From the NCBI RefSeq assembly GCF_004912275.1, contig NZ_STGY01000021.1, positions 1-64,000 of the forward strand: 64,000 nucleotides of DNA, given 5' to 3'. The translations under genes were made by a program, and so were the position numbers. Numbering within the stretch: position 1 is the stretch's first letter; each line of letters starts with the position of its first letter. This stretch comes from Glycomyces buryatensis (GTDB taxonomy: Bacteria; Actinomycetota; Actinomycetes; Mycobacteriales; Micromonosporaceae). The notes under the pieces were generated by a model, which ran no database searches, was not told the DNA's origin, and worked only from the letters and a program-made list of their open reading frames with translations. Of this stretch, positions 9,798 to 57,139 are shown piece by piece.

Positions 9798-9827
9798 TTG
9801 ACTACCTCGATGTGTTATCGATATCAT
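9798..9827 (+). promoter_or_regulatory. Promoter with overlapping LacI-type operator
   Basis: TTGACT (9798-9803) and TATCAT (9822-9827) with an 18-bp spacer form a near-consensus promoter for the GH43 gene. The near-palindrome TGTTATCGATATCA (9813-9826) covers the spacer and -10 box and has the central CG of LacI-family operators, so it should act as a repressor site. A related promoter/operator pair lies upstream of the second GH43 gene. Confidence 0.65.
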
Positions 9828-9871
9828 CGACGTGGCGCCACTGGCGTTACCCCCCTCACGAGGAGTCCATC

Positions 9872-11272: not shown

Positions 11273-11305
11273 CCCGAGAGCGCGATCGGCCCATAAACAA
11301 GAAGA

Positions 11306-11333
11306 GGCCCGGACGACGAAAGCCGTCCGGGCC
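11306..11333. terminator. Bidirectional hairpin terminator
   Basis: Perfect 10-bp arms GGCCCGGACG and CGTCCGGGCC (11306-11315, 11324-11333) around an 8-base loop. It lies between the GH43 gene and the convergent tctA gene, so it can end both transcripts. Confidence 0.8.
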
Positions 11334-11351
11334 GATCCCACTGGCCCGCGA

Positions 11352-12863: not shown

Positions 12864-12886
12864 GGTCGACGCTCCAGAGTGGACGA

Positions 12887-13396
12887 TCAGAGGGCGATCA
12901 GGTGCGGCAGCGGCACGCGGAGAGTGAGGATGAACAGGGCGTACGCGGCGGCGGTTACGCCCACCGACAGGAGCGCGGTGCTCAGCCACGACTCGCGGCC
13001 GAGGAACCGCAGCCACGCCGTCAGCAGGAGCACCGACGGGATCTCGAACCCGATGACCTCGAAGAGACTCGCATAGACGAAGAGGCCCACCGCTGCCGCG
13101 GCCACACCGATCGCGCCGCGCGTGAACGCCTCGGTGCCTTCGACGCGGCGTACCGAGGCGAGGATGCCGGCCCCGGTCAGGACCAGGAGCGCCGAGACGA
13201 TCAAGGGCCACAAGCCTGGCCCGGGATCGGTGAGGGTGCCGATATCGAGCCGCAGGCTCAGCCAGGCCGCGGCCGCGCCGAGGACGACCGGGACGGCACC
13301 GGCGACCGCAGCCAGGACCCGCCCGCCCGGAGCCGGTGCCTCCGGTTCCGGGCGGGCGTCGTCGGTCTCGTGCTCCGCCATGGGGAGAGCGCTCAC
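12887..13396 (-). CDS. tctB: Tripartite tricarboxylate transporter, small subunit TctB
   Basis: A 169-residue protein with four hydrophobic helices (starting about residues 27, 56, 90 and 135), the usual size and topology of TctB. It is the small membrane partner of TctA. The chosen start is GTG at 13396, whose last bases overlap the tctC stop codon (GTGA), suggesting translational coupling; an ATG five codons later (13381) is possible but has no ribosome site. The sequence of TctB proteins is poorly conserved, so the call rests on size, topology and position between tctC and tctA. Confidence 0.85.
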   Translation of the reverse strand: MSALPMAEHETDDARPEPEAPAPGGRVLAAVAGAVPVVLGAAAAWLSLRLDIGTLTDPGPGLWPLIVSALLVLTGAGILASVRRVEGTEAFTRGAIGVAAAAVGLFVYASLFEVIGFEIPSVLLLTAWLRFLGRESWLSTALLSVGVTAAAYALFILTLRVPLPHLIAL

Positions 13397-14397
13397 GATC
13401 CGTCGCCGAGGGCCAGTCCGACGTCGGCCACGTTCTGCGCGTAAAGCTCGGCGGCCTCGCTCAGGTGGGCGCGGGCCTCGACGTCGTCGACCTCCCACAC
13501 GTCCATGTAATTGTCCTGGAGGAACGCCTGGTAGTCGGGGTCCTGGCGGGCCTCCTCGAAGGCGAGGACGAGCGCGCCCGCCACGGTGTCGGAGACCTCG
13601 CTGGGCGCGACGACCATGCGGCGCTGGTCGACGACGACCGGGTACCCGGCCTCGGTCGCGGTCGGCGCGTCCTGGAGGAACACGTTCCGCTCCTCCGAGA
13701 ACACGGTCAGCGGGCGCAGGGCCCCGGCCTCGATCTGCGGCATCGTCTCGGCGAGCGAGCCGGAGACTACATCGATCTCCTGGCCCAGCAGCGCGGTCAC
13801 CGCGGGCGCGCCGCCGTCGAAAGGCACGTCGGTGGCCTCGGTGCCAGCCAGGCCGAACAGGAGCGCCAGCGAGAGCTGCCCGCCGGTGCCGACCCCGGCG
13901 GTGCCGTAGTTCAGCGACGGGGCGGCGACCAGGTCCTCAAGGGACTGGTAGGGCGAATCGGCGTGCACCACCAGGACATAGGCCTCGTTGGTGAGCGTCG
14001 CGATGATCCGGAAATCGTCGATCGCGACCGCGTCCGGGTCGTCGACCACGAGCGGCGTGATCGCGAACAGCGATTTGACCGCGAGCGCGAGCGTGTAGCC
14101 GTCGGCGTCGCCCGACACCAGTTCCTTGAGGCCCACGGCGCCGTTGGCGCCGGGTTTGTTGGCCAAGGCGATCGACTGGCCGAGCGGCTCTTCGGCGGCG
14201 AGGCAGACGGCGCGGCTGAGCAGGTCGCTGGACCCGCCGGCGTCGAACGGGACCGTGAAATCGATGGCGCGCGTGGGGAAGTCGTCCTCGGCGGCGTCGG
14301 CACCGCCTTGGACGCCGTTGCAGGCGGCCAGGGCGGCGACCGGCGCGGCGGCCGCACCGGCCAGCAGGCCGCGGCGGGTGAAGGGTCGGGGGTTCAT
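13393..14397 (-). CDS. tctC: Tripartite tricarboxylate transporter substrate-binding protein TctC
   Basis: A 334-residue exported binding protein of the Bug/TctC family. The N-terminus has twin arginines (FTRRGLLAGAAAAPVAALAAC) ending in a lipobox-like AAC, so it is probably a lipoprotein, possibly Tat-exported. Family motifs are IDFTVPFDAGGSSDLLSR (usually the first strand with the ligand loop), NKPGANGAVGLKEL and NYGTAGVGTGGQ. It captures a carboxylate outside the cell and hands it to TctAB. The gene sits between gudD and tctB in the glucarate operon, which suggests glucarate or galactarate as ligand. GAGGAG precedes the ATG. Confidence 0.92.
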   Translation of the reverse strand: MNPRPFTRRGLLAGAAAAPVAALAACNGVQGGADAAEDDFPTRAIDFTVPFDAGGSSDLLSRAVCLAAEEPLGQSIALANKPGANGAVGLKELVSGDADGYTLALAVKSLFAITPLVVDDPDAVAIDDFRIIATLTNEAYVLVVHADSPYQSLEDLVAAPSLNYGTAGVGTGGQLSLALLFGLAGTEATDVPFDGGAPAVTALLGQEIDVVSGSLAETMPQIEAGALRPLTVFSEERNVFLQDAPTATEAGYPVVVDQRRMVVAPSEVSDTVAGALVLAFEEARQDPDYQAFLQDNYMDVWEVDDVEARAHLSEAAELYAQNVADVGLALGDGS

Positions 14398-14440
14398 TGA
14401 TCGGCTCCTCATTGAGTGACGGTCGGGTATGGGAAGGAGT

Positions 14441-15778
14441 TCACCCCAGGCAGGGGCGTTTCGGGTCGAAGGCCCATCCGGGGGCGAGGTACTGCATGGC
14501 GGCGGCGTCGTCGCGGGCGCCGAGGCCGTGCAGGAGGTAGCGCTCGTGCGCGAGTTCGACCTGCTCGAGGTCGAGTTCGACGCCGAGTCCGGGTGCGGTC
14601 GGCACGGCGATGGCGCCGTCGGCGATCCGGAGCGGGTCGGCGGTGAGCCGCTGCCCGTCCTGCCAGATCCAGTGCGTGTCGATCGCGGTGATCGCACCGG
14701 GCGCGGCTGCGGCGACGTGGGTGAACATCGCCAGCGACACGTCGAAGTGGTTGTTGGAGTGCGAGCCCCAGGTCAAGCCCCAGGCCTCGCAGAATTGGGC
14801 GACGCGCACCGAGCCGGACATCGTCCAGAAGTGCGGGTCGGCCAGGGGGATGTCAACGGCGTCGGCGCGCACCGCGTGGGCGAGTTCGCGCCAGTCGCAG
14901 GCGATCATGTTCGTCGCAGTGCGCATTCCCGTGGCGCGCTTGAACTCGGCCATTACCTCGCGCCCGGAGTAGCCGTCCTCGGCGCCGCACGGGTCCTCAG
15001 CGTAGGCGAGGACGCCGTCGAGCCCCCGGCATAGGGCGATCGCCTGGTCGAGGGGCCACGCTCCGTTGGGGTCCAGGGTGATCCGGGCGTCCGGGAACCG
15101 CTCGGCCAGCGCGGTGACCGCGGCGGCCTCGTCAGGGCCGGGCAGGACGCCGCCTTTGAGTTTGAAGTCGCGGAAGCCGTAGCGGGCCTCGGCGGCCTCG
15201 GCGAGGGCGACGACGGCCTCGGGGGTAAGTGCTTCCCGGTCGCGCAGGCGCAGCCAGGGGTCGTCGGTGCCGGCGGTGCCGTCGCGGTACGGGAGGTCGG
15301 TCTTGTCGCGGTCGCCGATGTAGAAGAGGTAGCCGAGGACGGGGACGCTGTCGCGTTGGGCGCCGTCGCCGAGAAGGGCCGACACGGGCACGCCGAGGTG
15401 CTTGCCGAGGAGGTCGAGGAGGGCCCCTTCGAGGGCGGTACGGGCGTGGATCGCCACGCGCTGGTCGAAGGTCTGGCGGCCGCGGCCGGCGCTGTCTCGG
15501 TGGGCGAAGCGGCGGGCGACCTCGCCGAGGACCGCGTTCCAGGTGCCCACGGGTGCGCCGACGACGAGGTCGCGGGCGTCTTCGAGGGTCTTGGCGACGG
15601 CCTCGCCGCCGGGGACCTCGCCGACACCGGTGGCGCCCGTGTCGTCGGTGAGGATCACCAGGTTGCGAGTGAAGAAGGGCGCGTGGGCGCCGCTGAGGTT
15701 GAGGAGCATCGAGTCGTGTCCGGCGACGGGGACGACGCGGAGGCTCGTGACGCGGGGGGTTCGGGGCATCGTGGTCAT
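14441..15778 (-). CDS. gudD: Glucarate dehydratase
   Basis: A 445-residue enolase-superfamily enzyme that dehydrates D-glucarate (and often L-idarate) to 5-dehydro-4-deoxyglucarate. The capping domain starts with [14 protein letters not shown]. The barrel has the KxK catalytic pair in FKLKGG (about residues 217-222), metal ligands in TLDPNGAW and AYAEDPCG, and the catalytic His in GSHSNNH. Length matches the family. Its start overlaps the dehydrogenase stop by 4 bases (ATGA). It is the first step of a complete glucarate-to-2-oxoglutarate pathway in this operon. Confidence 0.94.
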
Positions 15779-17175
15779 CGCAGTTCCGGCGGCAGGAGTT
15801 CGGTCGGGAGGTCTTGGTAGGCGACGGGTCTGAGGAAGCGGTCGACGGCGAGGGTGCCGACGGAGGTCGATCGGGCGTCGCTGGTGGCGGGGTACGGTCC
15901 GCCGTGGATGGTGGCGGGGCCGACTTCGACGCCGGTGGGCCAGCCGCCGTGGACGATACGTCCGGCGAGGAGTTCGAGTCGGGGCAGGAGCCGAGCGGCT
16001 TCGGGCCCGTCATCGGGCCCAGTGTGGATGGTTGCGGTGAGCTGGCCTTCGAGGACGTCGAGGAGGTGGTGCGTCTCGGCCTCGTCCACGACGGTGACGA
16101 TGAGGGCCGCAGCGCCGAAGACCTCCTCGCGTAGTGCGGGTTCACGCAGGAAGGTCGCGGCGTCGGTGCGGAGCAGGGCCGGGGCGGGTTCGCCGGTGCC
16201 GTGGGCGAGAAGTTCCACGCCCGGGATCGCGGTGAGGCGTTCGAGCCCAGTCTCGTAAGCGGCGCGGATGGCGTCGGTGAGCATGGGCTGGGCTGCGGTG
16301 TCGGCGACGGCGCCGGCGGCGGTAGCGAGGAATTCGTCGAGTCCGTCTCCGGTGCGCGCGAAGACGAGTCCGGGGTTGGTGCAGAACTGTCCTGAGCCGA
16401 GGGTGAGCGAGGCTGCGAAGCCGCGGGCGAGGTCCCCGGCGGCGTCGGTGAGGGCGCCGGGGAGGAGGAAGACCGGGTTGACGCTCGACATCTCGGCGTA
16501 GACGGGGATGGGGACGGGTCGGGCGGCGGCCGTGGCGGCGATGGCGAGGCCGGCGGCGCGGGAGCCGGTGAAGGCGACGGCGGCGATGCCGGGGTGGGCG
16601 ACCAGGGCTTGGCCAAGGGTCCGGCCGGGACCGGTGATCTGGGCGAAGACTCCGGCGGGGAGGCCGAGCGCGGCGACGGCGTCATGGACGGCTCCGGCGA
16701 CGAGCGTCGCCGTGTCCGGGTGGGCCTCATGGCCTTTGACGATGACGGGCGCTCCGGCGGCGAGCGCGGAGGCGGTGTCGCCGCCGGCGGTCGAGAACGC
16801 GAGCGGGAAGTTGCTGGCGCCGAAGACCGCTACGGGCCCCAGCGGGATGCGGCGCAGTCGCAGGTCGGGCCTGGGGAGCGGGAGCCGGTCGGGGTCGGCA
16901 GGGGCGATGCGGACGCCGTTCCACGCGGGGTCTTCGAGGAGGCGCGCGAACATGCGGAGCTGGGCGGTGGTGCGATCGCGTTCGGAGGCGGCCCGGGCGA
17001 GCGGCAGGCGCGTTTCGCGGTGGACGGTGGCGGTGAGGTCGTCACCGAGCGCGTCGATGCGGTCGGCGACGGCGTTGAGCAGCGCGGCCCGCTGGGGAGC
17101 CGGGGTCTCGCGGTAGGGGCCGAAGGCCTCGCGGGCCGCGGCGACGGCGAGTTCCAGTTCAGGGAAGTCCGTCAT
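15775..17175 (-). CDS. 2,5-dioxovalerate (alpha-ketoglutarate semialdehyde) dehydrogenase
   Basis: A 466-residue aldehyde dehydrogenase of the NADP-dependent ketoglutarate-semialdehyde group. Visible are [27 protein letters not shown] (cofactor and substrate region), [10 protein letters not shown] with the cofactor lysine, [20 protein letters not shown] with the general-base Glu, and the nucleophile Cys in [11 protein letters not shown]. It would oxidise 2,5-dioxopentanoate made by KdgD to 2-oxoglutarate, the last step of the pathway. Both ends overlap neighbours by 4 bases, a tightly coupled operon. Confidence 0.93.
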
Positions 17176-18089
17176 GCCTTCACCTGCTCCACCAGGGCGC
17201 TGAGGGCGGCGAACTCGTCCTCGCTCAGTTCGGTCAGCGGGGGGCGCACGGGGCCCGCGGGGCGGCCGGCGGCACGCATCCCGGCCTTGACGATCGACAC
17301 GGCGTAGCCCTTGCCGCCGTTGCGGATCTCCAAGTAGGGCAGCACGAATGCGGCGAGGCGGCGGTAGACGGCCGCGCTGTCGCCGGCGCGCACGTCGTCG
17401 TAGAAGGCGAGTGCGAACTCGGGGACGAAGTTGAAGATCGCCGAGGAGTAGGTGGTGACGCCGAGCTGGAGGTACGGGAGGGCGAACGTCTCGGCGGTGG
17501 GGAGGCCGCCGATGTAGAGGAGGCGCTCGCCGAGGGTGGTGTAGAGGCGGGTCATGAACTCGATGTCGCCGATGCCGTCTTTGAAGCCGATGAAGTTGGG
17601 GCAGGCGTCGGCGAGGAGGGCGACGGTGTCGACGTCGAAGGCGGCGTTGGCGCGGTGGTAGAGGATCACGCCGAGGGAGGTCGCGTCACAGACGGCTTTG
17701 GCGTGGGCGAAGAGGCCGGCTTGGCTGGCCTCGGTCAGGTAGGGCGGGAACAGCAGGACCGCGTCGGCCCCGGCCTGCTCGGCGTCCTTCGCGAACGCGA
17801 TCGCCTGCGCCGTCCCGTATCCGGCGGGGGCGACGATCGGCACGGCGCCGGCGGCCTGCTCGACGGCGGCGCGGAGCACGGTGGCGACCTCGGCGGGGGT
17901 GAGCGAGAAGAACTCGCCGGTGCCGCCGGCCGCGAACAGTCCCGACGCGGGATAGGTCGCCAGATGCCCCAGGTTCTCGCGGTAGGCCGCTTCGTCGAAG
18001 GAGAGGTCGTCGCGGAAGTGGGTGACCGGGAAGGACAGCAGCCCGGAGCCCAGGACTCTCTGGATTTCTGCCGGGGCATATCGCGTCAT
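17172..18089 (-). CDS. kdgD: 5-dehydro-4-deoxyglucarate dehydratase
   Basis: A 305-residue DapA/NAL-superfamily barrel enzyme that dehydrates and decarboxylates 5-dehydro-4-deoxyglucarate to 2,5-dioxopentanoate. Visible are the GTGEFFSLT motif (usual GxxGE), the VILYHRANA strand with the conserved Tyr, and the Schiff-base lysine in [10 protein letters not shown]. It is the first gene of the operon, with GGAGA before the ATG, and is divergent from a LysR regulator. ATG 18089 is chosen because the conserved N-terminus [23 protein letters not shown] begins there. Confidence 0.94.
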
Positions 18090-46644: not shown

Positions 46645-49257
46645 CTAGTCTCCGTAGACGATCCGGCGCGCCGCGTCATGGGCGAGGCGGGTCAGGCGCC
46701 GGTAGTGGTTCAGGAATTCCTGGGTGTCCTCGCCGAATCCCAGCGTCTGCGCCAGCGCGGCCAGTTCCGCTCCCGAACGCGGCAGTTCGTCGCGCGGCAC
46801 CCCGCGCGCCAGCGTCATGTCGTTGCGCACCCGTGAGACGAACTCCCACGCCTCGCGCAACTCCGCCAACGACACGCGATCCAGATGCCCGGCCGCGGCG
46901 GCGGCCTCCAGCGCGGGCACCGTCCGCGTGGTGTGGAGTCCGGGCTCCTCGCCGTGTTCGAGTTGCAACAGCTGCGCGGCCCACTCGATGTCGACCAGTC
47001 CCCCGCGTCCGAGTTTGGTGTGTCCGTTGGGATCGGCACCCCTCGGAAGCCGCTCGGTATCCACGCGCGCCTTCACCCGCCGGAACTCGACGCGCTCGGC
47101 CTCGTTGAGCCCGCCGGGCCGGTAGCGGATCCCGTTGGCGACGGTGGTCCACTCCTCCAGCAGCTCGGCGTCACCGGCGACCGGCCGGGCCCGCAGCAGC
47201 GCCTGCCGCTCCCACAGCCGCGCCCGGTCGGTGTAGTACCGCCGGTACGCCGCGAGGCTCGGCACCAGCGTGCCGCCCTTGCCCTCGGGCCGCAGGTCGA
47301 GATCGATCTCCAGTGGAGGGTCGGCCGTCGGCGCGGACAGGAGCCCCCGAACGGACTCGGCAATGCGCCCGGCGGCCTTGCGTTCGACATCGGTCTCACC
47401 GCCGTGAATGAACACCACATCGGCGTCGGAGCCGAAGCCGGTCTCGCGTCCTCCCAAGCGGCCCATGCCGATCATCGCGATGGGAGGGGCGTCGGGGACA
47501 TCGCGGGAGGCTACGGCGAGGCCCGCGTCCAGCACCGCGTCGGTGAGGTCGGACAGGGCGATGCCGACCTGCTGGTCGTCCAGGAGCCCGAGGAGGTCGG
47601 CTGCGGCGATGCGAATGAGTTCACGGCGCCGGATGGCGCGGACCGCCGAAACCGCGTGGGTCGGATCGGTATGCCTGGCGGCGGCCTGGCGCATGCCCTG
47701 GGCGAGGTCTTCGCGCGCGCGGGGGGTCAGGTCGGCATTGTCCGAGAGGTACCGCAGCGATTGCGGCACGTGGAGCAGCAGACCTGTGAAGTAGCGGGAG
47801 GTGCCGAGCAGGCGGGCGAGGCGGACGGCCGCGGGGCCGCCGTCGCGCAGGAGCCGCAGGTACCAGGGGGTGGAGCCGAGTTTGTCGGAGACCTGCCGGT
47901 AGGCGAGCAGGCCGCGGTCGGGCTCGGGCGAGTCGGCGAGTTCGTGGAGGACGACGGGCAGGAGCGCGCGCTGCACGGTGGCGGTGCGGCTGACGCCGGC
48001 GGTGAGTCGCCGGATGTGGGTCAGGGCGCTCTCGGGGTCGGCGAAGCCGAGCACGGCCAGCCGGGAGGCGGCCTCGGACTCGGTCAGGCGCAGTTCGACG
48101 GTGGGCACGCGGGTCACGGCGTCGAGCAGCGGCTTGAAGACGAGCTTCTCGTGGAGGCGGCGGGCGGTGGCGGCATGGGCGCGCCATGCGGCGTGGAAGC
48201 CCTCGTCGGAGGTGTAGCCGAGGACGCGGGCGAGCTGGTGCAGCGGCTCGCCGCCGGCGGGGACGCGGTGGGTGCGCAGGAGGCGCTGGAGCTGGAGGCG
48301 GTGTTCGACGGTGCGCAGGAAGACGTAGGTGCTCCGCAGGTCCTCGCCGTCGCGGCGGGCCAGGAAGCCGCCCGCCTCCAGCACGTCGAGCGCCTCCAGT
48401 GTGGGGCGCACGCGGAGCGCCGGGTCGCCGCGGCCGTGGACGAGTTGGAGCAGCTGCACCGCGAACTCGATGTCGCGCAGGCCGCCCGGGCCGAGCTTGA
48501 TCTCGTAGCGGCGCTCGGCGGCGGGCACCGATTCGGCGACCTTGCGGCGCATGTCGCGGATGTCGGCGACGACGCCGGGCCGGTTCGCGGCGCCCCAGAT
48601 GAGCGGCTGGACGGCGGCGAGCCAGTCGAGCCCGAGCTGGAGGTCCCCGGCGGCGGGCCGGGCCTTGAGCAGCGCCTGGAACTCCCAGGTGCGGGCCCAG
48701 TCGCGCAGGTAGGACAGGTAGGAGTCGACGGTGCGCACCAGGGCGCCGTGGCGTCCCTCGGGCCGCAGCCCGGCGTCGACCGGCCAGGTGGCGGGGCCGA
48801 CGATCTGGATCATGCGGGCGGCCTGGCGGGTGGCCAGGTCCAGATCGCCCTCGGCCACGAAGACCACGTCCACATCGGAGACGTAGTTGAGTTCCTCGCC
48901 ACCGGTCTTGCCCATGGCGATGACGGCCAGACGGGTCTCGCCCATGTCCATGGAAGGACCCAGCTCATTGCGCGCGAGTTCGAGGCCGCGGGCCAGGACG
49001 GCGTCGGCCAGGCGGGAGAGGGCGGCCGAGGTGGCGGCGAGGTCGGCCTCTCCGGTGAGGTCGGCGGCGCTGATGCGGAGCAGGTTCGCCTTCCACTCGA
49101 AGTTGAGTCGGGACGCTCCGGCGGACCGGATGCGCTCGAGACCGGTGTCCTCGGACTCGGTCAGGGCGGCCTCGGTCTGCGGGTGGGCGCGCAGGAAATC
49201 GGCCAGGGCATTGCTGGCCGCGTTCACCGCCAGGCGCGCTTCGTCAGTGTCAGGCAT
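46645..49257 (-). CDS. glnE: Bifunctional glutamine synthetase adenylyltransferase/adenylyl-removing enzyme
   Basis: An 870-residue enzyme that adds and removes AMP on glutamine synthetase in response to nitrogen status. Two nucleotidyltransferase domains are visible: an N-terminal one with GGEELNYVSDVDVVFV (about residues 137-152) and a C-terminal one with GGRETGFGSDADVVFIHGG (about 600-618), joined by helical linkers. Usual members are 950-1000 residues; about 80 N-terminal residues are absent, with the homology starting near ADFLRAHPQTEAAL. The start at ATG 49257 overlaps the stop of the amidotransferase gene by 8 bases, so translation is coupled. Confidence 0.95.
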   Translation of the reverse strand: MPDTDEARLAVNAASNALADFLRAHPQTEAALTESEDTGLERIRSAGASRLNFEWKANLLRISAADLTGEADLAATSAALSRLADAVLARGLELARNELGPSMDMGETRLAVIAMGKTGGEELNYVSDVDVVFVAEGDLDLATRQAARMIQIVGPATWPVDAGLRPEGRHGALVRTVDSYLSYLRDWARTWEFQALLKARPAAGDLQLGLDWLAAVQPLIWGAANRPGVVADIRDMRRKVAESVPAAERRYEIKLGPGGLRDIEFAVQLLQLVHGRGDPALRVRPTLEALDVLEAGGFLARRDGEDLRSTYVFLRTVEHRLQLQRLLRTHRVPAGGEPLHQLARVLGYTSDEGFHAAWRAHAATARRLHEKLVFKPLLDAVTRVPTVELRLTESEAASRLAVLGFADPESALTHIRRLTAGVSRTATVQRALLPVVLHELADSPEPDRGLLAYRQVSDKLGSTPWYLRLLRDGGPAAVRLARLLGTSRYFTGLLLHVPQSLRYLSDNADLTPRAREDLAQGMRQAAARHTDPTHAVSAVRAIRRRELIRIAAADLLGLLDDQQVGIALSDLTDAVLDAGLAVASRDVPDAPPIAMIGMGRLGGRETGFGSDADVVFIHGGETDVERKAAGRIAESVRGLLSAPTADPPLEIDLDLRPEGKGGTLVPSLAAYRRYYTDRARLWERQALLRARPVAGDAELLEEWTTVANGIRYRPGGLNEAERVEFRRVKARVDTERLPRGADPNGHTKLGRGGLVDIEWAAQLLQLEHGEEPGLHTTRTVPALEAAAAAGHLDRVSLAELREAWEFVSRVRNDMTLARGVPRDELPRSGAELAALAQTLGFGEDTQEFLNHYRRLTRLAHDAARRIVYGD

Positions 49258-49984
49258 CGATGATCGGTAGCGCCTTCCGCCCACCCGTCGCCCCGCCCGC
49301 AGCCCCGAACTCGACTGAAGCAGTGTTCTCACCCGTCGCGACTCCCGCGAACCGCTGGATGATCGGCTTCCAGGTCTCCACGATGTGCTCATCGACGTCG
49401 GCGGCCTTGGCCAGCGCGGCCTCGTCGAAGACCCCGAAGCCCGCGAGCTGCTCGGGGGTGAATTCGAAGTGCGACTGGACGCCCCAGGCCGAGGCGCCGA
49501 TGCGGAAGATCTCCAGTGCCCCGTGCGGGGAGGCCGCCAGGAGCGTCGCGCTCTCGGGAAGTTCGACGAGTTCCTGTGTGCGCCAGCGGATCACGTCGAT
49601 GGTCATGGGGGCGGCGGCGAAGACCGGGTCGTATCCGGCGGCGTCGCGCTTGGCGAGCATCCGTGGCCCGATCGGCTGGTCCGAGTCCTCGACGCGGCCG
49701 CCGAAGGCGGCGGCCAGCAGGCGCGAGGAGGAGCAGATCGCGAGGGTGGGGGTGGCGTCGGCGACGGCGCACTCGAGGAGTCCGACCAGTTCGTCGGTCC
49801 AGTCCTTGCCGCGGCCGCCGCCGAGCGCGATGAGCGCCTCGTGTCCGCCGGGGCTGTTCGGCACCGGCTCACCTCGGTGGGGGCGAATGAGGTCCAACTC
49901 GAGTCCTGCCTCGGTGAGCCAGTCGGCGGCCCGGCCGAGCCCCTGCGCGGGGTCGTTCTCAATGACTAGTGCGGTGGAGGTCAC
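49250..49984 (-). CDS. Class I glutamine amidotransferase-like protein
   Basis: A 244-residue single-domain amidotransferase of the GMP-synthase-like type (peptidase C26 group). The nucleophile-elbow region reads LAICSSSRLLAAAFGG, with Cys in the right place but without the usual GHQ after it. The second part of the triad is intact in WGVQSHFEFTPEQ (His and Glu). The altered elbow may change the glutamine-binding loop. It is translationally coupled to glnE, which suggests a role in nitrogen metabolism. The ATG at 49984 begins ALVIEND. Confidence 0.85.
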   Translation of the reverse strand: MTSTALVIENDPAQGLGRAADWLTEAGLELDLIRPHRGEPVPNSPGGHEALIALGGGRGKDWTDELVGLLECAVADATPTLAICSSSRLLAAAFGGRVEDSDQPIGPRMLAKRDAAGYDPVFAAAPMTIDVIRWRTQELVELPESATLLAASPHGALEIFRIGASAWGVQSHFEFTPEQLAGFGVFDEAALAKAADVDEHIVETWKPIIQRFAGVATGENTASVEFGAAGGATGGRKALPIIDA

Positions 49985-50351
49985 TACCCCATGCTAATCC
50001 GTTGCACGCGCCTCGCGTGACGCTCCATCGCCCCGGGTTCCTCGCCGGCCCGGGCCCGTGGAGTTCCACAGAGTCACAGCGGACACTTCCGTTTACAGGC
50101 GTTTGATAACGATTCGGTGACAAACGGGCCGAAAGTGATTTCGAGCCCGGGAAAGATTTTTCCCCCGCGCTCACACCTGCACGTCCAATATGGATTCCAT
50201 CCGGATCGACTCGCAGGTCATAGCGCGCGCTAGTTGAGAATGATATTCACATAGTTACATATCGTGCATAAAGTGCGTTTACGAATCATTCAAGAAAGCA
50301 TGCTTATCATTGCGGTCTTCTCGGAACGATCCCCCGAACACTGGAGATCTC
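49985..50351. other. AT-richer regulatory stretch upstream of secretion cassette
   Basis: These 367 bases separate the minus-strand amidotransferase from the plus-strand secretion cassette and contain no supported gene. The stretch from about 50080 on is clearly less GC-rich than its surroundings and includes TTTGATAACGATTCGG (50100-50115) and a Zur-like box (50235-50249). It presumably holds the divergent promoters. Confidence 0.6.
50235..50249. promoter_or_regulatory. Zur/Fur-like operator upstream of secretion cassette
   Basis: TGAGAATGATATTCA matches the 15-bp actinobacterial Zur box TGAAAATGATTTTCA at 13 of 15 positions and overlaps a -35-like TTGAGA (50234-50239). It is 103 bases before the first gene of the cassette. 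Zur represses genes when zinc is plentiful, and mycobacterial ESX-3 is Zur-controlled, which makes the placement meaningful. Binding is inferred. Confidence 0.55.
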
Positions 50352-51164
50352 TTGACCGTCAACGAATCTGGGGAGCGCTCTCTCACCAGCGACTGCGGGA
50401 ACGTCACCGTCACCGTAGCCACGGGCGCGTCCCCGAAGGTCGAGCTCGCCGACACCGCCACCCGCATGTACGCGCGGGACCTGGCCGAACTCGTCACCAC
50501 CACCGCACATGCCGCCGCGGACGCCGCCCGCGCCGAGGCCCCCGAAACCGCGGCACCGTCGATCGACGACGCCATCGCGCAGCTCGCCAAACTACGCGGC
50601 GACCTGCGCGACAACGGCTTCGAGGCGACCATCGAGCAGCTGCGAAAGGACGCCGCGCCTCTCGGCGAGGCCGACACCCCGCGCGACTCGCAGTTCACCG
50701 GCGGCCCGACCGGCCTGGCGATGCCCCCGTTCGCGGTCGAGATGCTGGACAGCTCCATCGCACTGCTGGAGCGCTTCAAGAACCAGCCGCCCGGCAGCGG
50801 CAAGGGCGACGAGGAGGCGCAGCCGACGGGCACCGCCAAGAGCGAGAGCAAGCTCGTCGCCATCGAGTCCACGCTGGCCTACCCGATCGCCTCCGTGTGG
50901 CTCAGCAAAAAGGCGTGCGAGGTCGGACCGAAGGTCCTGGCCCAAGAACTCACCGAGACCGCCGCCGCGGCCGCCGCCGACCTGGCGGGCCGGGAGGACG
51001 ACTACTTCACCGGTCTCGGACTGCCGCTCAGCCCCGGTGATCTCGGTCCGATCGTCCAGGAGAACCAGGCCAGGGGCGACCGGGCGACGCAGGACCTCGC
51101 CTCGCTCCAGGAACAACAGCGCGACATGACCCGACTCTTCAACCAGGGAGGCTACTTTGCCTAA
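50352..51164 (+). CDS. YbaB/EbfC-like protein with helical extension
   Basis: A 270-residue protein. The N-terminal third (about 8-60: GNVTVTVATGASPKVELADTA, then YARDLAELVTTTAHAAADAA) has the strand-helix pattern of YbaB/EbfC proteins that accompany WXG/ESX gene clusters in actinomycetes. The rest is long amphipathic helices with a linker around 150-165 (GSGKGDEEAQPTG). There is no signal peptide. The start is TTG 50352 with GGAG six bases before; no good ATG is available. It overlaps the EspC-like gene by 8 bases. It is probably a chaperone-like or secreted component; the role is inferred from context only. Confidence 0.65.
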   Translation: MTVNESGERSLTSDCGNVTVTVATGASPKVELADTATRMYARDLAELVTTTAHAAADAARAEAPETAAPSIDDAIAQLAKLRGDLRDNGFEATIEQLRKDAAPLGEADTPRDSQFTGGPTGLAMPPFAVEMLDSSIALLERFKNQPPGSGKGDEEAQPTGTAKSESKLVAIESTLAYPIASVWLSKKACEVGPKVLAQELTETAAAAAADLAGREDDYFTGLGLPLSPGDLGPIVQENQARGDRATQDLASLQEQQRDMTRLFNQGGYFA

Positions 51165-51450
51165 TATCGACGGCGATCGAATCGACAAGCTCGGCACCGA
51201 CATCGAGAGCGAGGTCGGCGACATCCTCGTCAAGGCCAATGACGTCATCCCCGTGTTCCGGACGCTCGACCAGACGCTCTACACCTCCGTCGATCCCTCG
51301 CTCGCCATCGCCTACACGTTCGCCACCAGCTACATGAGCTCCATGGTCGAGGGCGCCGTCGAATGCTTCACGGGCTTGAACACGGACCTCACCGAGACCG
51401 CGAAGGACTGGGGCAAGGCCGACGAGGCGGCCGCCAAGGACCTGAGCTGA
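51157..51450 (+). CDS. EspC/WXG-like small helical protein
   Basis: A 97-residue protein without signal peptide, predicted as helical. The end ECFTGLNTDLTETAKDWGKADEAAAKDLS matches the terminal helix of EspC-type (ESX-secreted) proteins, where a W-x(2)-A/D-A pattern recurs. Its start is TTG 51157 with AGGGAGG upstream, inside the end of the preceding gene. Proteins of this type are exported as dimers by type VII secretion systems. The assignment is by size, pattern and neighbours. Confidence 0.65.
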   Translation: MPNIDGDRIDKLGTDIESEVGDILVKANDVIPVFRTLDQTLYTSVDPSLAIAYTFATSYMSSMVEGAVECFTGLNTDLTETAKDWGKADEAAAKDLS

Positions 51451-51483
51451 CCATCGCCCCGCGATCCTAAGGAACGTCACCAC

Positions 51484-52527
51484 ATGTCTTACACCGCCCC
51501 GGATCCCGCGCAGTTCGCCCAGATGGAGCAGGCCTATTCGTACATGGCGCCCGCGGCCGCCATCCAGATCGTCATGCCCACCTTCACCTTCTTCGGCCCG
51601 TGCAACCAGATCTCGCGCATCATCTACATGAACCAGTGCAACCCCGGCTTGATCATGCAGGTCGCCGCCAACTGGCTCAAGCTCGCCGAGCACTACCTGG
51701 CGGCGAGCGAGAAGCTCAAGGAGAAGACCGGAGAGATCAGCGAGGACGACTGGTCGGGAGACGACCGCGATTCCTTCGACGACAAGTCCGGCAAGATGGA
51801 CGCCCAGCTGGTCATCATCGCCGCGTTCGCGATGCACGTGGGCATCTCCCTGTTCATCATCGGCACGATGCTGGCCGTCCTGGTCCCCCTCATGCTCGCC
51901 GTCGCCACCTCGCTCTTCGCGATGTCGGTCATGTACACGGCCTTCAGGTTCATCCCGGTGATCGGGCCCGGGGTGGCCGCGAGCATCCACGTCATGGCCA
52001 CCGCCACCGCGGGGTCCTGCCTGACGGTCCTGGAGGCGCTGGACAAGGCGATCACCCTGGCCGCCAAAACGCTGGCGAGTTTCATCGGGGCCAATATGGG
52101 CGCCTCCTGGATCGCGCTGGCCACCAAGGGCAACATGATCAATCCCCTGGACACGATCGGTTCGACCGGATTCAGTCTGCTCCAGGGACTCTCGCAGCTG
52201 GCACTGCGCAACCTCATGGCCCCCGGCCGCAACGCGACGAGCAGCCTCGCGAGCGCCTCGCCCAAAATGAACAACTTGCTCATGAAGAACAATCCCCACC
52301 TGATCAACTTCGCCGGCGGCCAGGGCGTCTACAACATCGGCAACAACATCAACGGCGACGTCAACCCGGACGGCGACGCCCAGCGGTGGGACCGGCAGAC
52401 CGGGGTCGACTTCGGCGGCCTCGACTTCATCCCCAACACCTTCGAGGACCAGGCCCGCGAGGACGACGGGGAACCGCAGTGGCGCGACCCCGACAAGTAC
52501 CCGAAGGACCAGCAGGAAGACGCCTGA
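51484..52527 (+). CDS. WxG-motif membrane protein of the secretion cassette
   Basis: A 347-residue protein. An N-terminal helical domain (about 1-105) has a central WSG turn at residues 90-92, the WxG mark of ESX substrates. Two or three hydrophobic helices (about 107-165) follow, then a glycine/proline-rich, acidic tail (about 225-347) with GGQGVYNIGNNINGDVNPDG and ending DPDKYPKDQQEDA. WXG domain plus a transmembrane region suggests a type VII-exported effector or membrane-tethered component. No toxin motif is recognised. It lies 33 bases after the EspC-like gene, with AAGGAA before the ATG. Confidence 0.65.
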   Translation: MSYTAPDPAQFAQMEQAYSYMAPAAAIQIVMPTFTFFGPCNQISRIIYMNQCNPGLIMQVAANWLKLAEHYLAASEKLKEKTGEISEDDWSGDDRDSFDDKSGKMDAQLVIIAAFAMHVGISLFIIGTMLAVLVPLMLAVATSLFAMSVMYTAFRFIPVIGPGVAASIHVMATATAGSCLTVLEALDKAITLAAKTLASFIGANMGASWIALATKGNMINPLDTIGSTGFSLLQGLSQLALRNLMAPGRNATSSLASASPKMNNLLMKNNPHLINFAGGQGVYNIGNNINGDVNPDGDAQRWDRQTGVDFGGLDFIPNTFEDQAREDDGEPQWRDPDKYPKDQQEDA

Positions 52528-52572
52528 CCAGGCGCGGAACCGATCAACACCTGAGAGCAGATTGGCAGCCCG

Positions 52573-52899
52573 ATGGCAGCGAGAGAAATCGACACCGAGG
52601 CCCTGGAGGAATACCGGTCGGTCGTCCGCGACCAGCTGGAACTCCTGGACTCCATCATCACCAAGCTCGAGAACGGGCAGCCGCTGGGCCGCCTGCCCGC
52701 CTTCGGGCAGCTCGACGCCTCGGTGACCGCGAAGCAGAACTACGAGACCTTCCACGAGACCACCTGGACCAACCTTCAGAACCTGCGGGAATCCCTGCAC
52801 GGCATGATCACCACCCTCAACGACTCCGCGGAGCTGTCCGAGGAGGCCGACGCGGCCGCCGAAAGCGACCTGAACGACTACGACTCGGCCCTCGCCTGA
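52573..52899 (+). CDS. Small helical protein of the secretion cassette
   Basis: A 108-residue acidic, all-helical protein of ESX-substrate size but without a clear WxG turn. It begins IDTEALEEYRSVVRDQLELLDSI, has a possible turn around LGRLPAFGQLDASVTAKQNY and ends SELSEEADAAAESDLNDYDSALA-like. It may be the dimer partner of one of the neighbouring WxG proteins. Its stop codon overlaps the start of the lipoprotein gene (TGATG), so the two are coupled. Confidence 0.6.
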   Translation: MAAREIDTEALEEYRSVVRDQLELLDSIITKLENGQPLGRLPAFGQLDASVTAKQNYETFHETTWTNLQNLRESLHGMITTLNDSAELSEEADAAAESDLNDYDSALA

Positions 52900-53654
52900 T
52901 GAGGGCCGCGACCCGGGTGGCAGGGACCGCCGCCGCGGTGGCCGCCGCGCTGGCCCTGGCCTCCGCTTGCAGCACCGGCACCGATCCCGGTGCCGACACG
53001 AGCGGGTCCGCCGAGACCGGTTCGCTGTCGTCCATGTCGGACTGGCTGGGCTGCGACGTCTTCGCCGACCTGGAAGCGCTCCAAGAGACCCTGGGCGTCA
53101 CGGCCGTCGAAGGGGAGCTGCAAAGCGACGGCCTGAACGAGGGCGTCGACGCCGAGGCCGCCGGCTGCTCGGGCCTGTTCGACCTGGCCGCCTTCTCCGA
53201 CACGCAGGGTTCGTTCGACTACGAGTCCACCGGCGACGCGGCGATCCGCGCCGGCCTGGCGCCCTGGGCCGGTGAGGAGGAGGCCGCGGCGAACTTCGCC
53301 GATCGCGTCGGCGTCCGCGAGGACAATCCCGCGGGCCTCGACTACACCGACGAACAGGAGGGCGAACTCGGCGGCGAGTGGGACGAGAGCCTCACCGTCA
53401 CCGCGGAGACCGCGCACCGCACCTATGTGGACGTCTACGGCCGGTACGGGTCGTGGGTCGTCTACGTGTCGGTGGACTACCTGCACGACCCCGGCGTCGG
53501 CGCCTACGAGTCCGCCCCCGAGCTCTACCCGGACTCCAGCGCCGAGCAGCTGGCCGTCTACCCCTTTACAACTGCACAGTTCACCGACTGGATCTCGCAG
53601 GAGTACCTGCCGCAGGTCCAGTCCGACATCCTCGAACGAGTCGAGAGCGAGTAG
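52899..53654 (+). CDS. Lipoprotein of the secretion cassette (DUF3558-like)
   Basis: A 251-residue exported lipoprotein with lipobox ALASAC and Cys24. The mature part has two cysteines in WLGCDVFADLEALQETLGV and AAGCSGLFDLAAF, arranged as in DUF3558-type actinobacterial lipoproteins, a family of unknown function. It ends in an amphipathic helix (FTTAQFTDWISQEYLPQVQ). It would be anchored on the outer face of the membrane and may receive or fold the secreted proteins. The start overlaps the previous stop by one base. Confidence 0.7.
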   Translation: MRAATRVAGTAAAVAAALALASACSTGTDPGADTSGSAETGSLSSMSDWLGCDVFADLEALQETLGVTAVEGELQSDGLNEGVDAEAAGCSGLFDLAAFSDTQGSFDYESTGDAAIRAGLAPWAGEEEAAANFADRVGVREDNPAGLDYTDEQEGELGGEWDESLTVTAETAHRTYVDVYGRYGSWVVYVSVDYLHDPGVGAYESAPELYPDSSAEQLAVYPFTTAQFTDWISQEYLPQVQSDILERVESE

Positions 53655-53659
53655 CGGCG

Positions 53660-55624
53660 ATGGCCGAAGAAGAAGAGTTCGAGCGCCAGGATTACGGCAA
53701 GACCGACGAGGGGCAGTCGACCTCCTCCTATACCGAGGCGCAGAACAACCTCCTGGTAGCGCCCCAATGCAGCACCGATTCATGCACCTGTAGCACCGAG
53801 GAACCCGCCGAGGCGGCCTGGGTGAAGCTGATGTCGGCGGTCCCCCAGGCGAGCCAGATCAATAACCTGCGGGCTGCCCGCGAGGGCACCATGATGCTCC
53901 CCGAGGGGCAGACGATCCAGAGCATGGTCTCCTCCATCCGGCCCCAGCCGGAGGCGGACTACGCCCTGGACACCATCCGGGACGAGTGGACGGACTTCCA
54001 CGAGCAGTTCCGCGTCATCGGTCCGAAGCTGGAGCAGGGCCTGGCCGACCTGTCCAAGCTCTGGAAGGGCGACGACTTCGACGCCTTCGAGGAGCAGAGC
54101 GAGACCGTCATCAAGAACTGCCGGACCCTGCTCGACGACATCGGCGGGGAGGACGGCACCGACGGCATCGTCAAGGTCCTCGACGACAAGCAGCTGGAGA
54201 TCTTCGAGCAGCAGGGCGGGACGGCCTGCGTCTACCCGGCGCCGAAGTTCTACATGGAGGGCACCAGTTGCGGCTCCCACCGCATCCACATCCGGCCCCC
54301 GTTCTACAAGAACTGCGTCATCGAGGAGAACGACGAGATCAAGCACGCGGTCGAGCTGGCCGGCTTCGATCCCACCGTCGTAGACGAGGTCCAGGAGGGC
54401 CGCCAGGCCGAGTACGACCGGTGGCTGGAGTACGCCACCGCCAATCCCGATTACGAGGTCGACGGGCTCAAGGGCGAGGAACTGGCGCAGAAGAAGGCCG
54501 ACGAGTACGCCGACCGGGAACTTGTCGCCATGGGAGCCAAGGGGTCCGAGCAGCTCGAGGAGCAGGCCGCGATCGTCAATGAGGAGGTGACCGAGCGGCA
54601 CTCCAATGTCGAGGCCCAGGTCACCGAGATCGAGCCCGACTCCAAGCCGAGCGAGACCACCACCTTCAACGACGGCCAGACCGACATCCCCGACAACGGC
54701 GGGCTCGACATCGGCGACGGCGGCACCGGCATGCCCGACCTCGGCGGAGGCGGGGGCGGTGGAGGCGGTGGGGGCCTGGACGACATGGCCCCGCCCACGG
54801 ACCTGAACAGCCTCAACAACTCGAACTCGGACGGGCTCGGCGGCACTGGCGGCCAGGGCGGCAACCTTCCGAGCGACTACACCGGCGGCAGCAACGACCT
54901 CAACGGGCTGGGCGACGAGAACCCGTTCGGCCCCGGCGAGGACCCGGACGGCACCGCGCCCGACGGCGATATCGGCAACGTCGGCAATGTCGGCAATACG
55001 GGCGGGCTGCCGCCGACCGACTACTCCAGCCCGAACGGGCTCGACGGCCTGGACGACTCGCCCTGGTCGCCGTCCGAATCCGACCCGGACGATCTCGACG
55101 GCGGTCTCGCCAGCGGCGGCAACGGCCCGAGCAGCCCCAGCCTCACCGCCCCCGGCGCCCCGCCGAGCAGCCCCGGCGGCCCGAACCTCACCACCACCGG
55201 CGTGCCGTACCGGCCCAACGGCGGCACGACCGGGCGGACCCCGTCCCCGGCCACCGGGCGCGGGCTCGGCAGCGGGCGGGGCATCAGCTCCACCTCCAAT
55301 GGCGGCCGGGGCATCAGCTCGACGTCGAACGGCAAGGGACTGGGCTCGGGCTCGGGTTCCGGCGGCCGCGGGATCAGCTCCACCTCAGGCGGCAGCGGGC
55401 TGCGCGGTGGCGCCGGTGCGGGCGCGGGCATGGGAGCCGGGGCGGGATCCGCAGCGGCCGGCAAGGCCGGCTCGGTTTCCGGCGGCGGCATGGTCCCGGG
55501 CGCCGCAGGCGGCGGGAAGGGTCCCGGAGACGACCCCGAGAGCGACCGCGAGGTGTTCCTCACCGAGGACGACGACATCTGGGGCGGCATGCCCGAGGAC
55601 GAGGACGAGGACCCCTTCGCATAG
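53660..55624 (+). CDS. Large Gly/Ser-rich WxG protein of the secretion cassette
   Basis: A 654-residue acidic protein with no signal peptide. The N-terminal part has a cysteine cluster (CSTDSCTC, about residues 37-44), and helices follow with a WKG turn (135-137) of WxG type in LSKLWKGDDFDAFEEQ. Two further cysteines flank a hydrophobic strand (CVYPAPKF, then KNCVIEEN). From about residue 355 it becomes a low-complexity, Gly/Ser/Asp/Pro-rich tail with a run of 11 glycines and three RGISSTS repeats (from 55277, 55307 and 55367). It ends in a highly acidic tail with the block REVFLTEDDDIWGGMPED. The last gene of the cassette, it is probably secreted; function unknown. Confidence 0.7.
   Translation: MAEEEEFERQDYGKTDEGQSTSSYTEAQNNLLVAPQCSTDSCTCSTEEPAEAAWVKLMSAVPQASQINNLRAAREGTMMLPEGQTIQSMVSSIRPQPEADYALDTIRDEWTDFHEQFRVIGPKLEQGLADLSKLWKGDDFDAFEEQSETVIKNCRTLLDDIGGEDGTDGIVKVLDDKQLEIFEQQGGTACVYPAPKFYMEGTSCGSHRIHIRPPFYKNCVIEENDEIKHAVELAGFDPTVVDEVQEGRQAEYDRWLEYATANPDYEVDGLKGEELAQKKADEYADRELVAMGAKGSEQLEEQAAIVNEEVTERHSNVEAQVTEIEPDSKPSETTTFNDGQTDIPDNGGLDIGDGGTGMPDLGGGGGGGGGGGLDDMAPPTDLNSLNNSNSDGLGGTGGQGGNLPSDYTGGSNDLNGLGDENPFGPGEDPDGTAPDGDIGNVGNVGNTGGLPPTDYSSPNGLDGLDDSPWSPSESDPDDLDGGLASGGNGPSSPSLTAPGAPPSSPGGPNLTTTGVPYRPNGGTTGRTPSPATGRGLGSGRGISSTSNGGRGISSTSNGKGLGSGSGSGGRGISSTSGGSGLRGGAGAGAGMGAGAGSAAAGKAGSVSGGGMVPGAAGGGKGPGDDPESDREVFLTEDDDIWGGMPEDEDEDPFA
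55277..55393 (+). repeat. Coding RGISSTS repeats in the Gly/Ser-rich tail
   Basis: Three nine-codon units RGISSTSNG, RGISSTSNG and RGISSTSGG start at 55277, 55307 and 55367. They differ in synonymous bases, so they are protein-level repeats, not recent DNA duplications. Confidence 0.85.
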
Positions 55625-55722: not shown

Positions 55723-55768
55723 CCGTGGGGCCTGTCCCGGATCGATCGATCCGGGACAGGCCCCACGG
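55723..55768. terminator. Very long bidirectional hairpin terminator
   Basis: A perfect 46-bp palindrome between the secretion cassette and the convergent glutamine synthetase gene. The left arm 55723-55744 and right arm 55747-55768 pair over 22 bases with AT at the centre. It should end transcription in both directions. Confidence 0.85.
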
Positions 55769-55798: not shown

Positions 55799-57139
55799 TC
55801 AGAGGTTGATGTACCTGCGGCGCTCGAAGGCGGTCACCTGTGTGCGGTAGTCCTCCCACTCGCTGCGCTTGTTCTTGAGGAAGTAGTCGAAGACGTGCTC
55901 ACCCAGGACCTCGGGGACGAGCTCGGAGGCCTCCATCGCGTCGAGGGCCTCGGCGAGGTTCGACGGGAGCGGCTGGTAGCCGGCGGCGACGCGTTCGGCG
56001 TTGGTCAGCGACGCGACGTCGTCCTCGGTGCCCGGGGGCAGTTCGTAGCCCTCTTCGATGCCCTTGAGGCCGGCGCCGAGCAGGACGGCGTAGGCCAGGT
56101 ACGGGTTGGCGGCCGAGTCCAGCGAGCGGATCTCGACGCGGGCCGAGTTCGGCTTGCCGTAGGCGGGGACGCGGACCAGCGCGGAGCGGTTGGCCTTGCC
56201 CCAGGACACGAACGAGGGCGCCTCGGAGATCTGGCCCGGCTGGGGGCTGGTGAAGAGGCGCTTGTAGGAGTTGACCCACTGGTTGGTGATCGCGGTGAAC
56301 TCGGGCGCGTGGCGCAGGAGTCCTGCAATGAAGGCCTTGGCGGTCTTGGAGAGCCGCTGCTCGTCGCCCGGGTCGTGGAAGGCGTTGTCCTCGCCCTCGA
56401 AGAGCGAGAGGTGGGAGTGCATGCCGGAGCCGGGCTGGGTGGTGAACGGCTTGGGCATGAACGAGGCGGTCACGTCGGAGGTCAGGGCGACCTCCTTGAC
56501 GATGTGGCGGAACGTCATGATGTTGTCCGCGGTGGTCAGCGCGTCGGCGTAGCGCAGGTCGATCTCCTGCTGGCCGGGCGCGACCTCGTGGTGCGAGAAC
56601 TCGACCGAGATGCCGACGCGCTCGAGCGCGATGATGGCCTGGCGGCGGAAGTCGCGGGCCGTCGAGTGCGTGGTGTGGTCGAAGTAGCCGCCGTCGTCGA
56701 CGGGGACGGGGTTCTCGCTGCCGTCCTTGAGGAGGAAGAACTCGATCTCGGGGTGCACGTAGAACGTGAAGCCCCGGTCGGCGGCCTTGGAGAGGGACCG
56801 GCGCAGCACGTGGCGCGGGTCGGCCCAGGACGGTGCGCCCTCGGGGGTCAGGATGTCGCAGAACATGCGGGCGGACTCGCCGATGCCGCGGCCCTCGAAG
56901 GGGAAGACCTGGAAGGTGGTCGGGTCAGGCATGGCGACCATGTCGGACTCGTAGACCCGCGCGAAGCCCTCGATGGCCGAGCCGTCGAACCCGATGCCCT
57001 CCTCGAAGGCGGATTCGAGCTCGGCGGGGGCGACACTGACGGACTTGAGGGTGCCGAGGACATCGGTGAACCACAGTCGCACGAATCGGATATCGCGCTC
57101 TTCGAGCGTCCGGAGCACGAACTCCTTCTGGCGTTCCAT
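55799..57139 (-). CDS. glnA2: Glutamine synthetase type I, GlnA2-like
   Basis: A 446-residue enzyme that joins ammonia to glutamate using ATP. Visible are FDGSAIEGFA, the metal-site EIEFFLL, GSGMHSHLSLF and the ATP/glutamate region with NPYLAYAVLLGAGLKGI. Length and neighbours (glnE, panB) match the GlnA2 group of actinomycetes (M. tuberculosis Rv2222c, 446 residues). The adenylylation-site NLYDLP of the beta type is replaced by GYELPPGTEDD, so this enzyme is probably not adenylylated, and the main GlnA1 must be elsewhere. GAGAC precedes the ATG. Confidence 0.95.
   Translation of the reverse strand: MERQKEFVLRTLEERDIRFVRLWFTDVLGTLKSVSVAPAELESAFEEGIGFDGSAIEGFARVYESDMVAMPDPTTFQVFPFEGRGIGESARMFCDILTPEGAPSWADPRHVLRRSLSKAADRGFTFYVHPEIEFFLLKDGSENPVPVDDGGYFDHTTHSTARDFRRQAIIALERVGISVEFSHHEVAPGQQEIDLRYADALTTADNIMTFRHIVKEVALTSDVTASFMPKPFTTQPGSGMHSHLSLFEGEDNAFHDPGDEQRLSKTAKAFIAGLLRHAPEFTAITNQWVNSYKRLFTSPQPGQISEAPSFVSWGKANRSALVRVPAYGKPNSARVEIRSLDSAANPYLAYAVLLGAGLKGIEEGYELPPGTEDDVASLTNAERVAAGYQPLPSNLAEALDAMEASELVPEVLGEHVFDYFLKNKRSEWEDYRTQVTAFERRRYINL

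Follow-up and report, generated by a model that had tools for sequence, protein, structure and literature searches.

A six-gene cassette at the glnA2 site of Glycomyces buryatensis with likeness to type VII secretion substrate-chaperone sets

What is a block of six packed plus-strand genes doing beside glnA2 in a Glycomyces genome? We addressed this question for a 64,000-nucleotide stretch of Glycomyces buryatensis (contig NZ_STGY01000021.1, positions 1 to 64,000; hereafter "the window"), in which the six genes, P1 to P6, lie at 50352-55624, exactly where an initial annotation had placed them (Table 1). That annotation had described an orphan WXG/EspC-type secretion cassette between glnE and glnA2, served by machinery encoded elsewhere or forming an envelope system of its own. 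Our analysis points to a probable answer, namely that the cassette would be an accessory, exchangeable set of substrates and chaperones for a type VII (ESX) machine whose genes lie in another part of the genome. Two separable modules, A (P1-P2-P3) and B (P4-P5-P6), make it up, and it is best seen as a variation on known type VII substrate-chaperone sets and not as a new system.

Likeness of the six proteins to type VII substrates and chaperones

The proposed WXG/EspC character was borne out by family profiles, by controlled profile-profile comparisons and by predicted hairpins, but by no single protein at a curated cut-off. In module A, P1 stayed below threshold against YbaB (PF02575; 15.8 bits, cut-off 25.5, E 0.016), and 13 of the 19 members of its family matched PF02575 (best 7.5e-6), where a family match, here and below, means a loose E <= 0.5. 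The two halves of P1 can be aligned weakly with each other in a profile comparison (36% probability, E 3.8e-4), which suggests a tandem YbaB protein. P2 itself did not match EspC (PF10824); 7 of its 18 family members did (best 3.3e-4), and P2 scored 90.7% (E 1.2e-6) against a Glycomyces EspC-type profile. Its C-terminus, WGKADEAAAKDL, is identical at 5 of 12 positions to the mycobacterial EspC motif in the available part of PMC3935865, with W replacing Y, and it fits the wider WXG100 pattern HxxxD/ExxhxxxH (H, hydrophobic) given in that same part. Throughout the P2 family D89 is invariant (18/18), and residue 85 is W in 11 members, M in 5, Y in 1 and A in 1.

P3 carries its WxG motif at W90 and remained under the cut-offs for WXG100 (PF06013; 14.5 bits, cut-off 27.3) and PPE (PF00823; 12.6 bits, cut-off 26), and it scored 91.9% (E 7e-7) against a Glycomyces PPE-type profile. 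The EspC-type and PPE-type profiles (9 and 8 rows) were picked by gene position and look, the P3 alignment consisted of 20 chosen rows of 50 matches, and five unrelated negative-control profile pairings gave 0.1-0.2%. The best PDB sequence match of the P3 profile was a WXG100 protein (E 0.55), the structural model predicted a helix-WxG turn-helix hairpin (54-84/93-155), and a Foldseek search with that model listed EspB chains at a probability of 0.38-0.54. When P2, P4 and the N-terminal half of P1 were queried against PDB sequences, only designed or unrelated proteins came back. On contig C2, a 466-residue open reading frame (L046, 9777-11177) starts like P2 as judged by eye and matches P3 by BLAST; it is a possible natural P2-P3 fusion and would therefore hint that P2 and P3 pair.

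In module B, P4 scored 55.9% (E 1.1e-4) against the EspC-type profile and 55.7% against P2, and 3 of its 23 family members matched WXG100 weakly (best 0.0066), alongside unrelated matches that were equally strong. P5 has a lipobox, ASAC, at C24, and 16 of 17 members of its family carry a lipobox; P5 did not itself match DUF3558 (PF12079), to which 3 of the 17 family members showed weak matches (best 0.014). For P6, with its WxG at W135, there was no Pfam WXG100 match and an NCBIfam WXG100 score of 14.4 bits against a cut-off of 44.85; within its family, searched with the N-terminal part, 11 of 18 members matched WXG100 (best 3.7e-6). Over the WxG hairpin P6 scored 82.4% against the P3 profile, and the best PDB sequence match of its own profile was a WXG100 protein (E 0.003). 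A model of residues 1-348 (predicted local distance difference test score, pLDDT, 76) had PPE41 and EsxEF as its top structures by Z and a predicted helix-WxG turn-helix hairpin at 103-134/140-162. Both proteins modelled, P3 and part of P6, are hence predicted to contain the WxG hairpin whose absence the initial annotation had named as counting against its reading; both are far longer than the WXG100 proteins of about 100 residues.

The residues C37, C42, W54, W110, W135, G137, Q185, H210, R212 and C219 were present in 27 of 27 P6 relatives (the P6 alignments held 18 and 27 chosen rows of 121 matches). The acidic tail of P6 occurred in 37 distinct proteins at the loci examined, of which 36 were P6 relatives and one was another WxG-type protein. 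This last one, encoded on contig C26 (L175, 1418-2578), is WXG100-like below threshold (20.1 bits), falls outside the P6 family and has the tail EDVWG...DDDPYA; the tail may therefore be a shared tag.

The arrangement of module A has a counterpart in mycobacterial ESX-1. As described in the available parts of PMC6107294 and PMC6319747, the espA-espC-espD and espE-espF-espH sets likewise combine a WxG partner, a small EspC-type protein and a YbaB-like protein, and espACD, like the cassette, is encoded away from the ESX locus. In those parts, the YbaB-like EspH binds EspE, is needed for EspE/EspF secretion and changes substrate levels, and EspD stabilises EspA/EspC (PMC6107294), while EspL stabilises EspE, EspF and EspH and interacts with EspD (PMC6319747). 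The cassette differs from these sets in a larger P1 with maybe two YbaB-like halves, in its order YbaB-EspC-WxG, in the W for Y of the YxxxD motif of P2, in the attached second, lipoprotein-bearing module, and in the lack of any sequence match over cut-off.

Related sets occur within the window genome itself, where triads on contigs C26, C46 and C60 (L047, L176 and L177) share the gene order of module A and a profile-level similarity to it. The C26 triad contains a YbaB protein (50.3 bits, E 2.7e-13), an EspC protein (26.5 bits, cut-off 23.5) and a PPE-like protein that narrowly misses its cut-off and matches P3 by BLAST at 23% identity; P1-P3 are diverged and stay under the curated cut-offs, whereas the C26 YbaB and EspC proteins exceed theirs. 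The C46 triad, whose YbaB-like member is below threshold (E 4.7e-4), adjoins a module B, as in the cassette. A further genus of the family has, near ESX-type genes (L163-L170), a P6-like gene of about 440 residues with similarity in the WxG region (E down to 3e-12). At L163, the only one of these eight loci covered by the mycosin scan, a mycosin-like gene (267.7 bits, cut-off 278.75) lies two genes away from it. These P6-like genes match at 45-117 of 338 profile positions and have no cassette around them. On the structural side, the fold predicted for P3 and P6 is an elongated helical bundle with a WxG turn, which may resemble the EspB/PPE structures 7p0z, 6xzc, 4kxr and 5xfs; the scores are weak. 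Literature searches within the available library returned no paper combining Glycomyces with type VII secretion and none combining DUF3558 with it, and the text of PMC11217815 makes no mention of YbaB, EspC, lipoprotein or Glycomyces.

Insertion at the glnA2 site

Both flanking genes were found once each, as strong matches, in all 22 Glycomyces genomes searched. The initial annotation was right that the cassette interrupts an otherwise closed gene pair, but the pair is glnA2 and a class-I glutamine-amidotransferase-like gene, not glnA2 and glnE; this amidotransferase-like gene, overlooked before, intervenes between the cassette and glnE. In 19 of the 22 genomes the pair is adjacent, roughly 10-100 bp apart, and in the remaining three, G000 (the window genome), G005 and G018, the cassette lies between its members. 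The comparison of the gap thus identifies the cassette as an accessory insertion at the glnA2 site. The inserted stretch starts only a few bp from the stop codon of glnA2, and the TTAGCAT-GTG sequence, which most cassette-free genomes have in front of the amidotransferase-like gene, survives on the far side of the insertion in the carriers. In the window, at 49985-50351, the TTAGCAT box ahead of the GTG start likewise remains where the insertion cuts the amidotransferase-like gene and glnE off from glnA2; as these two genes are separated from glnA2, they may need a promoter of their own. We also considered whether the six genes form a housekeeping block of known function, and rejected this because none of them has a curated match in Pfam or NCBIfam and because the site is cassette-free in 19 of 22 genomes.

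The cassette is accessory, and its history is probably a mobile one. A grouping of the three carriers as a clade on their flanking genes was rejected by the approximately unbiased (AU) test (p-AU 5e-52), and in the flank-gene tree G005 was sister to the cassette-free G014. Among eight cassettes compared, module A of the three glnA2-site cassettes formed a clade (100/100), and module B of the same three was recovered at 78/84, which is not firm. A placement of the window cassette next to those from G015 and G021, which the flanks would favour, was rejected as well (p-AU 1e-6 for module A, 2e-5 for module B). The carrier pattern could reflect transfer from one lineage to another through recombination in the flanks, or an old presence followed by several clean losses; we favour transfer.

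Table 1. Positions of the cassette genes, the flanking genes and the candidate control elements in the window.
Feature	Position	Strand	Description
P1	50352-51164	+	270 residues, TTG start; YbaB-like, possibly two YbaB-like halves, putative substrate chaperone
P2	51157-51450	+	97 residues, TTG start; EspC-like small helical protein, C-terminal WxxxD replacing YxxxD
P3	51484-52527	+	347 residues; WxG/PPE-like, helical, long hydrophobic stretch 105-154
P4	52573-52899	+	108 residues; small helical protein, putative P6 partner
P5	52899-53654	+	251 residues; predicted lipoprotein, weakly DUF3558-like at family level
P6	53660-55624	+	654 residues; WxG, N-terminal helical/beta domain, Gly/Ser-rich linker, acidic C-terminal tail ending EDEDPFA
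glnE	46645-49392	-	upstream flank; overlaps amidotransferase-like gene
Class-I glutamine-amidotransferase-like gene	49250-49984	-	flank; PF00117 27.5 bits, cut-off 22.8
Upstream element GATAACGAT	50105-50113	+	about 249 bp before P1
-10-like element TGCTTATCATTG	50301-50312	+	TGCNTANNATTG-like box, about 52 bp before P1
Perfect inverted repeat, 46 bp	55723-55768		P6-glnA2 interval; read from sequence
glnA2	55799-57139	-	downstream flank

Modules, promoter region and spread in the genus

The six open reading frames are genuine genes and not chance ones, because further Glycomyces genomes keep their order and, of 28 cassette-gene pairs compared, 27 have a ratio of nonsynonymous to synonymous substitution rates (dN/dS) under 1 (0.13-0.61), with a single P1 pair (1.02) as the outlier. 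Pairs of flank genes gave values below 1 in 9 of 9 cases. Successive genes from P1 to P6 are spaced by -8, +33, +45, -1 and +5 bp.

Outside the window, genes were called by a purpose-built codon-usage caller with approximate start sites and possible loss of small genes. A P3 query found matches in 26 of 61 genomes, comprising all 22 Glycomyces and 4 of 39 from outside the genus, the latter weak (E 4e-6 to 5e-4), and relatives in named records were all from Glycomyces (28/28 loci). The cassette is not an isolated case, since P6 relatives numbered 121 (E <= 1e-30) across 22 of 22 Glycomyces genomes, with 2-7 in each and 7 in the window genome, some of these matches possibly being fragments at contig ends. 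Nor is the cassette a single six-gene system, as its modules occur apart as well as together. Among 28 loci with genes called around the matches, 8 had a module A with no module B close by (L080, L085, L086 and L088-L092), module B or P4 and P6 alone were found at other loci, and G017 carries modules A and B on separate contigs. The six-gene form was present at four chromosomal sites: the glnA2 site (3 genomes), a glucanase site, and one site each in G015 and G021. At the glucanase site an alpha-1,3-glucanase gene lies downstream in G013 and G008 (Pfam assignment for G013), and G006 and G019 share the upstream genes, with P6 of G006 cut by a contig end and the G019 contig stopping after P4. 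Contig C46 bears the modules in reverse order, with P4-P5-P6 followed on the same strand by the YbaB-like/EspC-like/PPE-like triad. Reduced forms were seen in G011 (L173), with only P4 and P6, and in G012 (L172), which at the G015 site has a remnant of a short P1, P4 and P6. A recurring Glycomyces locus beside a 129-residue MRLRTDDD gene (L094-L105, around 7000-18000) combines a diverged copy of module A with a P6/P4 pair and, often, module B; it is perhaps the home locus of the family.

Upstream of P1, GATAACGAT belongs to an element found within 1 mismatch of CGATAACGAT before 9 of 10 P1 genes of this cassette type (as an exact 9-mer in 6). The CGATAACGAT-like element occurred at three of the four six-gene sites and before the stand-alone module A of G017; at <=1 mismatch it was absent from G015, from 18 of 18 other P1-like genes and from 16 of 16 stand-alone copies of module B. 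It was present in 28 of 395 control upstream regions, a set that includes cassette copies and counts some genomes twice. Of the 10 upstream regions of this P1 type, 6 contain the TGCNTANNATTG-like box, compared with 16 of the 395 controls. Distances of these elements are shifted for L081, L087 and L093, whose P1 starts were probably called too late. As both elements are common to this cassette type, the cassette seems to travel with its promoter region. A WhiG-type -10 likeness of GATAACGAT was considered and dropped on inspection by eye. A sigma-70 scan gave one promoter-like site (50246-50274), with 0.2 expected by chance, and a terminator scan gave 4 terminator-like sites, with 2.6 expected. 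The inverted repeat before glnA2, which the scan did not list because it has no T run, is a possible two-way terminator.

Candidate machines, proposed mechanism and alternatives

Contig C7 encodes EccC (853 bits), EccB (183.1, cut-off 154), EccD (187.7, cut-off 94.95), EccE (112.1, cut-off 108), a mycosin-like protease (237.3 bits, below its cut-off of 278.75) and two WXG100 proteins. Contig C12 (L178) encodes a second EccC (682 bits) and EccD (97.8); a sub-threshold WXG100-type gene also lies at this locus, with no EccB among the genes scanned there. The genome thus contains a type VII secretion system (T7SS) machine of the T7SSa kind that ESX-1 Esp sets require, with EccB, EccC, EccD and EccE over cut-off on C7, and with the ESX genes of C7 and C12 the cassette therefore has candidate machines in trans. 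Of the two options left by the initial annotation, a machine encoded elsewhere is likely, and an envelope system of the cassette's own is not needed to explain the observations, since EccB-E and a mycosin-like protease are present on another contig.

Two further observations concern export genes. Near the C7 ESX locus, genes of 600 and 618 residues (L043, 6877-8679; L069, 17221-19077) have similar starts and ends by eye, and the former contains an alpha/beta-hydrolase domain (PF06259, 106.6 bits) and is perhaps an exported enzyme. On contig C78 (L041, 10711-15740), genes for a 773-residue FtsK/SpoIIIE-type ATPase (81 bits) and a 208-residue protein adjoin a P4-like/P6-like pair and possibly form a small ATPase-linked export unit.

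By analogy with the mycobacterial sets, we propose that P1 would bind and stabilise P3 in the cytosol, keeping it soluble, and that P2 and P3 would form a four-helix EspC/PPE-like dimer exported as a pair, with the C-terminal WxxxD of P2, as an equivalent of YxxxD/E, being read by an EccC ATPase. P4 and P6 would form a second four-helix dimer, also exported as a pair, and P5 would sit at the surface as a lipoprotein, holding or accepting P6 on the outer side of the membrane. The hydrophobic stretch of P3 and the Cys/His domain and acidic tail of P6 would act in the envelope. The pairing, chaperoning, export, location and any extracellular function are what we infer for these proteins; envelope pore, adhesion, development and competition are candidate final roles.

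Several results weigh against assigning the cassette to a type VII machine. None of P1-P6 exceeded a curated cut-off in Pfam or NCBIfam. The C-terminal YxxxD/E is lacking in 17 of 18 members of the P2 family (W85xxxD89 in the window P2) and in 20 of 23 of the P4 family. Foldseek gave nothing at E <= 0.001 for P3 or for P6, both of which have weak structural matches, and unrelated BAR-domain bundles scored level with PPE proteins for the P3 model. P6 reached just 3.7% against the PPE-type profile. Only the first rows of the EspC-type and PPE-type profiles were tested against Pfam, and the PPE one fell below cut-off. Finally, there are two EccC systems, on C7 and C12, and either might serve the cassette.

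Other readings have to be set beside this one. T7SS toxins with WxG/LXG heads and adjacent immunity genes are common. Module B might accordingly be an ESX-exported antibacterial toxin-immunity pair, with P6 as toxin, P5 as lipoprotein immunity factor and P4 as targeting partner, and the predicted lipoprotein adjoining P6 and the invariant Cys/His/Arg set of P6 would suit this arrangement. We consider it improbable, because P6 has no recognisable toxin domain and occurs without an adjacent P5 in G011 and G012, and P6 ends in a conserved acidic tail after a low-complexity linker instead of a variable toxin domain; on these grounds, and with no toxin family match, a reading of P6 as a polymorphic T7SS toxin gains no support. 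YbaB family proteins bind DNA. A reading of P1 as a nucleoid-type DNA-binding regulator draws on this family property, which the available part of PMC6107294 also mentions, and on the conserved element upstream of the cassette; the cassette would then be a regulated developmental envelope unit, and its proteins would arrive at the membrane independently of ESX. It seems to us rather unlikely: P1 is followed by P2 and P3, or their fusion, at the loci read (the G012 remnant excepted), a hydrophobic stretch is lacking in P1, P2, P4 and P6 and is purely internal in P3, and in that same part of PMC6107294 EspH alters both substrate levels and secretion in mycobacteria.

The patchy distribution, the G012 remnant and the non-matching trees could also be produced by a degenerate or selfish block of no current function, kept by copying and transfer, but the dN/dS values, the six intact frames in the window and the absence of any resemblance to a transposase or integrase among P1-P6 in the Pfam and NCBIfam scans make this very unlikely. 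A bolder version of the secretion hypothesis, which we put forward only tentatively and hold to be doubtful, would unite the modules in one Glycomyces-specific exported envelope assembly, with a membrane-inserting, PPE-like P3, a P6 that bears Cys/His residues and an acidic tail and is tethered by its own lipoprotein, and a W/MxxxD export signal replacing YxxxD; it would be an exchangeable surface module that recombination at fixed chromosomal sites shuffles among strains. The reading as an exchangeable substrate-chaperone set for an ESX machine encoded elsewhere remains the one we favour.

Work on ESX substrates and the YbaB-like chaperones that go with them has, to our knowledge, centred on mycobacteria. 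Glycomyces, in which 22 genomes have 121 P6-type matches and the modules may be present, separated, rearranged or missing, is a natural collection for the study of substrate-chaperone matching, and one that also bears on how strict the YxxxD/E signal is. The insertion in 3 of 22 genomes, next to clean empty sites in the others, indicates that such cassettes are gained or lost independently of the machine.

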